Shown here: positions 58,462 to 60,785 of the stretch, piece by piece
Layout of the letters: the number at the start of each line of letters is the position of its first letter
How positions within the stretch are numbered: the stretch's first letter is position 1
NCBI GenBank assembly: GCA_001687465.1
Contig: LVLI01000593.1
Coordinates: 24,211-88,210 of the forward strand
Direction of reading: 5' to 3'
Length of the DNA stretch: 64,000 nucleotides
From: Halocafeteria seosinensis
Lineage: Eukaryota > Sar > Bigyra > Bicosoecida
Made by a program: the position numbers and the translations under genes
The notes under the pieces: generated by a model
Database searches by the model: none
What the model saw: only the letters and a program-made list of their open reading frames with translations
Told to the model about the DNA's origin: nothing

Positions 58462-60785
58462 TTAACCTCAGCATCCGGTCTTGGTGGCGTCCTTGCCACT
58501 GCTCTTGCTGACACTCAAAGTGGTGAAATTCTCCGCGCAAGTAGGATGAATGCCGACAGTCCTCAAGAAGCTGTGATATGTAGCACCCAAACGGATGGCC
58601 ACTCCTACACCTTGGGTAACTTCTCCGGCATTGGGGCCGAGGTAATGGAACCCAACCACTCGCTCATCATCGGCTTTATTGACCACGAGTTTCGTGTAGC
58701 AAGCATTGTCGGGGCGGTCGTGATTCAGTTCCCATTCAAGCGGTTTGAAGTTGGTGTGGTACACCTCTATGTTATCTTCGCCAAACTCCTCTATAGCCTG
58801 TTCTTCGGGGTATCCACAAGCACCGTATTCCAATGGAGTAAACACAGTTGTCGGGACTCTATTGTAGTCCATCCCTTCAGTTTTGTTGTTGAACAAGCGC
58901 TCCGAGAGAAGTTCGCCGGCTTGGATCGCAACGGGAGTTAGCTCGAGGCCATTTTCGACGATATCTCCGATCGCATAGATATGGGGAACATTGCTTTGTT
59001 CATTCTGAACAGGAATCTTTCCATTCTTGGCGACCTGAACACCTGCATTCTGAAGATCCAAACCTTTTGTGTCGGCATACCGTCCGGTAGCTGCCAATAC
59101 GGTATCGAAGACATCAGAGTATTCACTGTTGTCGTCCTTCATCACGTAAGTCACCTTAAGTTTACCATCATCCTGCTTCGTTATTTCTTTCGGCACGGCT
59201 TTTCGGATAAAATGAGTTCCATGATGCTGCATGTTTTCCCCGATGATTTCCGCGCACTGCTGATCGAAACCCCGAAGCAGAATGCTGCGCACCATAACGG
59301 TGGTATCGTAACCATAGGCCGTCAAGAAACCGGCACATTCCAATGCGACGTAACTAGCACCAACAACAAGTGTCTTTCCAGGAGGTTCCGAAAGGGAGAA
59401 GAGGTCGTCGCTTGTTATGGCATATTCTCCGCCTGGTACGTCCAATTGATTAGGACGCCCCCCGACGGCAACAATGACTCTTCTTGTGGTGAAGGTCTCT
59501 TTCTTGCCTCGTTTATCTGTAGTTTCAATGGTATGAGGGTCAACGAATCTACCAAGAGCATTCTTGTATGTGACTTTCTTCGTCCGCAGCGCAGCCCTGT
59601 GGGTCATTGATCCCAAAGTTACTAATGCAGATGGCGTACACAATCCATCATAGAAGGGGCCTTACTTGTATCCAAAGTTGATGCTCTTAATATACTCTTG
59701 AATTTTTTCGACAAATGTTCCCCAGTCGAATTTCGTCTCGCCGAATTGCCACCCAAACTGCTAGTGAACAAGGGACGAAACGGTGATCACATCATTTCTT
59801 ATAAAGGCAAAAACCTTCGGAAAAGGAAACGTACCTGACGTGCATCTTCCATATAATCTCCAAGTTGAGCTGCTTGATGCATGAGTTTCTTAGGGATACA
59901 TCCTACGTTGACGCACGTGCCTCCAAGACCCCATTTGGTTCCATGCGGCGAAGGCTTCACGTAGTCCAGGCATGCCACTTTAGCTCCTAAATCAGCAGCC
60001 TTTTTGCCGGCGGCCAAACCACCGGAGCCACCTCCGATAACCACGAGGTCGAAATCGTAGCCTCCTTCGGGGGCTTCTTCTTGTTCGCTCCCACGAAGAT
60101 TGCCATTTTGCATTTGAACATCCTTGTCTTCTGTGTCGTTCTCATGAGTAACCCGTGGAGGTCTGGCAATGCTGGCTCCAGTCATAAAGTTTTCTCTAAT
60201 GAACTCTTGTGTTTCGTCGAATCCACCCAAGAACTGCAACACACCCATAGTTTGTCTCGTTCGCTCCCGTGTCAAGAAGTTAACCAATCTGAAGTTTCAT
60301 CACTCACATCATTGTCATTCATCCATACCGCTGGGGATGAAGAATGCGCCTCGGCACGTGGTCCCAATGACTGCAACAGTGAAATCATGAGTTTTTGACG
60401 CTTGAATGCACAGGTTATACGTCATTACACAGGCGGGAATTCCGGCAGAACATCTTCGGCCGAACTTCCACCGAAGGGTTCAACGAGGGGGGGAAGAATT
60501 CATCCCCTCGTAGCTCATGCTACAAAATGTCTTACCTTTCGCTTTTCGAACCAGAATGATCTAAACTCATCTCGAGAGCCTTGTTCGTGCTTTTCAATGG
60601 TCAATTGACTGGGAGAAAGCTCAGCAATGCCCTCGAGAATCCGTACGCAGCGGCTGTAGAACGGGCCTGTATACATGCCATATACATGTCCAATCACTAC
60701 TATAAGGGTACCATATGAAAGAGAATCGATTTTTCTATCACGTACATGCTGTCCACCCGGAAATACTCAATTTTAAAGGGGACAT
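58462..60785 (-). CDS. Selenoprotein thioredoxin glutathione reductase (glutaredoxin-thioredoxin reductase fusion)
   Basis: Six phase-checked exons: 60785-60746, 60666-60536, 60370-60308, 60233-59835, 59760-59666 and 59596-58462. They give 620 residues if UGA at 58470-58468 is read as selenocysteine, followed by Gly and TAA. Residues 1-90 are a glutaredoxin domain: [18 protein letters not shown] (Cys codon split by intron 1), SSPAVWMND and [11 protein letters not shown]. The reductase has [20 protein letters not shown] (FAD), [10 protein letters not shown] redox pair, [17 protein letters not shown] (NADPH), YAIGDI and the C-terminal HPTCAENF. The enzyme should pass electrons from NADPH to thioredoxin and, through the glutaredoxin domain, to glutathione-linked substrates. 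The CPFY site has one cysteine of the usual CPYC pair, so it would work by a monothiol mechanism. The terminal Gly-Cys-Sec-Gly is the animal-type TrxR redox tail. No targeting peptide is visible. Confidence 0.93.

Follow-up and report, generated by a model that had tools for sequence, protein, structure and literature searches.

Does the minus strand of this locus encode a selenocysteine (Sec) thioredoxin reductase (TrxR) that carries a glutaredoxin (Grx)-like domain at its N-terminus, as in a thioredoxin glutathione reductase (TGR)? The window analyzed here is a stretch of 64,000 nucleotides from contig LVLI01000593.1 of Halocafeteria seosinensis, in which the sequence-only reading had placed such a gene, interrupted by five introns. 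The gene was rebuilt at exactly that location (58462–60785, minus strand) from six exons with consistent phases. The five introns (79, 165, 74, 74 and 69 nt, in order) all display GT...AG borders, and the splices that had been proposed to link [13 protein letters not shown] and [11 protein letters not shown] were found as described. It is highly likely, judging from the sequence, that this gene encodes a Sec thioredoxin reductase fused to a glutaredoxin-like domain, with Sec inserted by means of a SECIS. The coding features are as follows, in positions of the window:

60785–60746, minus strand: exon 1, with the start codon and the first part of the glutaredoxin-like domain
60666–60536, minus strand: exon 2, PFYSRC... 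helix region of the glutaredoxin-like domain
60370–60308, minus strand: exon 3, SSPAVWMND strand
60233–59835, minus strand: exon 4, end of the glutaredoxin-like domain (GGFDETQEF), start of the FAD-binding part of the reductase and CVNVGC site
59760–59666, minus strand: exon 5, reductase; may begin at 59760 or 59757
59596–58462, minus strand: exon 6, NADPH and dimerisation domains, HPTCAE, GC-Sec-G tail and UAA
58470–58468, minus strand: in-frame UGA, read as selenocysteine from the Cys of a paralog, a SECIS-like match and tRNA-Sec

The UGA is the only internal stop in the spliced frame, which ends in GC-UGA-GGU-UAA (Gly-Cys-UGA-Gly-stop) and thus bears out the TGC-TGA-GGT-TAA terminus that had been claimed. 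Intron 1 falls within the Cys codon of the CPFY motif, after its first base (T|GC), and the Pro of the exon 3 segment SSPAVWMND is presumably the cis-Pro. The acceptor of intron 4 is a tandem NAGNAG (TAGCAG) with two sites three bases apart (59757–59760), one of which would add a Gln, and the product therefore comprises 620 or 619 residues, with an estimated mass of about 68 kDa for the longer form. The 619-residue form was used for residue numbers and searches.

Most of the predicted product is, beyond doubt, a full-length animal-type thioredoxin reductase. The NCBIfam model of this family (TIGR01438) is matched over its entire length by residues 137–619 with 699.1 bits (cut-off 475.85), in agreement with the complete FAD/NADPH disulfide reductase of animal type that had been proposed. 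The best PDB chain is 1h6v, annotated as 'thioredoxin reductase' and which we take to be rat TrxR1, with 626 bits and an alignment that extends to the last residue. The TGR entry 2x8c scores 595.7 bits over residues 134–619, and 7p0x, which we take to be a Brugia entry, 526.5 bits. The catalytic motifs CVNVGC and HPTCAE and, at the C-terminus, GC-x-G can be read directly from the DNA at their expected places. The gene thus displays two traits of TGRs, namely CVNVGC and HPT sites in a TrxR module of the high-molecular-weight type and, at the codon level, a C-terminal Gly-Cys-Sec-Gly, the insertion of Sec itself being a prediction.

The N-terminal region is recognized far less readily. It contains the motifs CPFY...SSP...GGFDE, yet the Pfam Glutaredoxin model does not match it, even at E values up to 10, and the six PDB matches that it retrieves are all free glutaredoxins (E 0.11–0.12), none of them a TGR. 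We therefore compared it to a profile built from six glutaredoxins of the same assembly. The spliced domain scores 13.2 bits with this profile (best single stretch, 9.4 bits), a value that none of 300 shuffled versions of the domain reaches (maximum 2.7 bits), and an hhalign comparison with the same glutaredoxins gives a P value of 1.3e-5 and a probability of 80%. The unspliced six-frame pieces of the window remain below 3 bits among the eight best matches, so the glutaredoxin signal appears only after splicing. Splicing is not the only basis for the fusion, because in exon 4, a single open exon, [11 protein letters not shown] is followed without interruption by the start of the reductase. A search of the genome with the N-terminus returned four matches, all four of which are the gene itself. 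These data point to a divergent, weakly recognized, putative glutaredoxin-like domain that may be active. The glutaredoxin domain that the sequence-only reading had spread over three 5' exons is thus supported, at the level of sequence, as a putative glutaredoxin-like N-terminal fusion, but it is more divergent and less well recognized than had been stated.

Whether such a domain would be active bears on the role of the enzyme in glutathione metabolism. The assembly searched (30.6 Mb in 605 contigs) contains a glutathione reductase (GR)-like gene on contig C161, whose C-terminal frame is matched best by TIGR01421 (284.6 bits, below the cut-off of 556.15 that applies to the whole protein), and 10 of 15 glutaredoxin matches in the genome lie above the cut-off. 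Further reductase matches were found on contigs C307, C185 and C89. Because a GR-like gene and other glutaredoxins are present, the fusion is probably not the sole route for GSSG in this organism, unlike the situation outlined for parasitic flatworms in PMC6155587.

It is possible, although we consider it rather unlikely, that the product is a Sec thioredoxin reductase whose N-terminal thioredoxin fold lacks glutaredoxin and GSSG reductase activity and acts as a docking or regulatory domain, as in filarial nematodes. The domain is divergent and missed by Pfam, the GR-like gene and the other glutaredoxins would render the fusion unnecessary for GSSG, and filarial Grx-TrxR fusions with neither activity are reported in PMC8914392. 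Against this, the domain retains CP-x-x, the Pro before the V-W strand and GG-x-D, in contrast to the filarial domain as presented there, and the domain of mouse TGR is described as monothiol in PMC3530482.

A plain thioredoxin reductase, translated from an in-frame ATG located just upstream of the exon 4 acceptor, with exons 1–3 unused and the glutaredoxin remnant decaying, is improbable. The position of this ATG would suit such a product, and a form without the glutaredoxin-like domain could arise from it. Chance splice models, moreover, are not very rare: when the upstream sequence was searched under permissive rules for models of three exons that contain CP-x-x and P-x-V, six were found in the real sequence and at least one in 3 of 60 dinucleotide-shuffled sequences. 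For this reason the three 5' exons, taken alone, are less safe than the reductase. Splicing in vivo according to the model is predicted. The upstream exons are nevertheless open and consistent in phase, they outscore all 300 shuffles against glutaredoxins when joined, and the GGFDE end of the domain is still carried in exon 4. The fusion of a glutaredoxin-like domain to the reductase thus remains our preferred reading of the 5' part of the gene.

At the other end of the gene, the UGA is very probably a selenocysteine codon, which supports the earlier proposal at the level of sequence; the evidence consists of a Cys in a paralog, a SECIS-like element, and a tRNA-Sec together with SepSecS. The paralog is a Cys-type thioredoxin reductase on contig C463 (about 4047–5822 of locus L023) that is 48% identical and scores 521.7 bits with TIGR01438. 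It ends in TGT-TGC-GGC-TAA (Cys-Cys-Gly), and therefore has TGC where the fusion gene has TGA. No Rfam match was detected at E values up to 5 in region 5500–7500 of L023, of which about 1.7 kb lies beyond the stop of the paralog. This result is compatible with a Cys enzyme but is weak evidence for one. In the exon before this reductase no glutaredoxin motif is visible, and the search with the N-terminus found nothing at C463. The own-genome glutaredoxin profile also stays below 3 bits upstream of C463, but it does likewise for the unspliced exons of the window itself (eight best matches), so this test has no power on the absence of the domain there.

The sequence-only reading had also placed a SECIS downstream, and a SECIS-like match was indeed found about 150 nt beyond the UGA:

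58315–58248, minus strand: SECIS-like element with ATGA, a GGTCTAC/GTAGACC helix, unpaired CAA and an apical mini-stem TCGCT/AGCGA

A cmscan run on 801 bases around the gene end with 4227 families aligned Rfam SECIS_1 over model positions 1–64 of 64 with 25.6 bits and an E value of 0.015, the best of eight matches listed, which corresponds to about 3.5e-6 for one family alone (0.015 divided by 4227). The score falls below the Rfam gathering score of 35, and a scan at that threshold could therefore not list the element. Neither was it listed by a scan of the whole window with Rfam (E up to 10, stricter filters) nor by a genome-wide SECIS_1 search (E up to 10) in which 133 of 442 candidates were scored. 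The fold comprises a 7-bp helix adjoining ATGA, the unpaired CAA and the apical mini-stem, with a z-score of -3.54, and none of 200 shuffled sequences is as stable. The SECIS core (quartet, helix II and unpaired AA) is thus present in the 3' region. A hand-made descriptor of this core is met at two sites in the window on both strands, of which only the one at 58315–58248 has the AA. Among other loci totaling 284,730 bases it yields eight rows, which represent four distinct sequences; this total counts both strands and overlapping loci and leaves out the loci of the fusion gene. Of 2000 shuffled 500-nt 3' regions, 5 contain at least one such core.

The genome contains a tRNA-Sec that scores 80.1 bits against a gathering score of 47, the only one of seven matches above it, and ARAGORN agrees on the assignment (anticodon tca). 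SepSecS is represented by matches of 320 and 122.5 bits, the second of which runs over one TAA. Three matches to SelD (68.6, 29.7 and 22.9 bits) lie near a contig start, all below the cut-off of 125. A second selenoprotein was sought among the glutathione peroxidases (GPx), for which five match rows were found in the genome, with no stop codon inside any of them, so this route yielded no further candidate. Ordinary termination at the UGA, which would leave an enzyme with Gly-Cys as its last residues, is very improbable: the SECIS and SelD scores lie under their curated cut-offs, but a Cys occupies the matching position of the paralog, GGU-UAA directly follows the UGA, and the SECIS-like element, tRNA-Sec and SepSecS are all present.

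In the mechanism that we propose for the Sec-containing fusion, the ribosome would meet the UGA two codons ahead of the UAA, and the SECIS downstream would bring in the selenocysteine machinery for the insertion of Sec, which would create a mobile C-terminal Gly-Cys-Sec-Gly redox center. In enzymes of this family, the redox chemistry of each subunit involves the Cys-Sec pair of the other subunit in the dimer. Electrons would accordingly be expected to flow from NADPH through FAD and CVNVGC to this pair and on to thioredoxin. If the CPFY domain is active, they could proceed to glutathione or glutathionylated proteins. Both this dimer chemistry and the substrate range are inferred for the present enzyme.

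A second structured region lies between the UGA and the SECIS-like element:

58460–58383, minus strand: long stem-loop, candidate selenocysteine redefinition element (RNA fold and genome search)

The stem-loop has a predicted stability of -44.2 kcal/mol and starts 7 nt past the UGA (GGUUAAG). When the window was folded in 84-base segments every 12 bases on both strands, only 6 of 10,654 segments were equally or more stable, and all six derive from a palindrome at 63.4 kb. The gene thus displays a trait of redefinition elements, namely a stable stem-loop about 6–9 nt after the UGA. According to PMC3628699, SelS has a penultimate Sec and, 9 nt past the UGA, a conserved stem-loop by which Sec insertion is promoted; in SelN the stem-loop starts 6 nt past the UGA. 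The geometry of the hairpin is notable by analogy with these elements: the spacing of 7 nt compares with 9 nt in SelS and 6 nt in SelN, and the likeness to SL1 of SelS includes the penultimate Sec, a loop that opens the 3' UTR and a stem-loop directly past the Sec codon. We tentatively suggest that the recoding signal could be of two parts, in which the SECIS acts together with a very stable stem-loop, placed as in human SelS, that would stall the ribosome and raise Sec insertion at the penultimate codon, although we consider this less likely than not. If the hairpin is a redefinition element, it would extend a poorly sampled class to the thioredoxin reductase of a microbial eukaryote.

Used as a query against the genome, the 3' region retrieved itself and, as the sole other match, a decayed duplicate on contig C481, in a search that skips very common words and so does not prove rarity. 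An origin of the hairpin from a mobile element is not favored, given these matches. The duplicate is partial and lies in locus L025 (C481:30000–39900), at about C481:35211–36196 on the minus strand. It keeps UGA-GGT-TAA and consists of some 190 coding bases with gaps, a gap of about 640 bp, approximately 165 bases of the 3' region and a further piece of 44 bp; its match to the 3' region ends inside the SECIS. A second functional copy at C481 was therefore rejected. One viral-contig scan and one species-genome scan confirmed no relatives.

The palindrome itself (63391–63460) is near-perfect and has the most stable fold among the sampled segments. It draws five sub-threshold Rfam matches on both strands, mostly to miRNA families, which are probably a matter of structural chance.

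The flagellated microbial eukaryote that had been named as the host is supported by three exon matches to IFT46 in the assembly, the best with 121.7 bits. A photosynthetic lineage was rejected, as no match to a chlorophyll a/b protein was found in the genome. The GR-like gene, the glutaredoxins, IFT46 and the lack of a chlorophyll a/b match together suggest a eukaryote that is not photosynthetic and that possesses ciliary genes.

Fusions of this kind are described from mammals and flatworms in PMC6155587. Their supposed rarity elsewhere, as put forward in the sequence-only reading, does not stand: PMC8455672 lists six TGR genes for Tetrahymena and three for Euplotes octocarinatus, and PMC8914392 a filarial Grx-TrxR fusion with an inactive domain. 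With ciliate and filarial fusions already described, the argument from rarity falls, while the anatomy of the gene stands. With mammalian TXNRD3 and platyhelminth TGR the gene shares the N-terminal Grx-like domain on a GCUG-type reductase. It differs in that its Grx part matches no TGR chain in the PDB, the best stretch of 2x8c starting at residue 103 of that chain, and in that it is accompanied, in the Halocafeteria genome, by both a GR-like gene and a Cys-type TrxR. The active-site motif is CPFY, compared with the CPYC given for Schistosoma in PMC8914392. The ciliate TGRs present the same domain fusion in single-celled eukaryotes, a likeness drawn from their description in PMC8455672. The passage on them makes no mention of selenocysteine and reports Tetrahymena to be without GR and TrxR genes, whereas both a GR-like gene and a Cys-type TrxR occur in Halocafeteria. 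The filarial fusions of Brugia and Onchocerca, as characterized in PMC8914392, are comparable, being TrxR selenoproteins of mammalian type that carry a divergent Grx-like domain at the N-terminus; that domain lacks Grx motifs, whereas CPFY is kept here.

The gene thus adds, from an apparently non-photosynthetic, ciliated or flagellated lineage, a probable fusion of a Sec-type TrxR to a divergent Grx-like domain with CPFY, and bears on whether such fusions are of ancient origin or arose on several occasions. Together with its paralog it would constitute a natural Sec/Cys reductase pair within one genome, and it provides an example of how both ends of such a gene can be lost in automatic annotation.

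Elsewhere in the window, the minus strand contains an apparent tandem array of related metallophosphatase genes (36468–44679), in which three open reading frames display the motif FMGHRPMYT; Pfam Metallophos matches one of them, and by inspection the array is purple acid phosphatase-like. A cyclic-nucleotide phosphodiesterase extends over several exons at 7654–11102 (minus strand), with a sub-threshold GAF match upstream.
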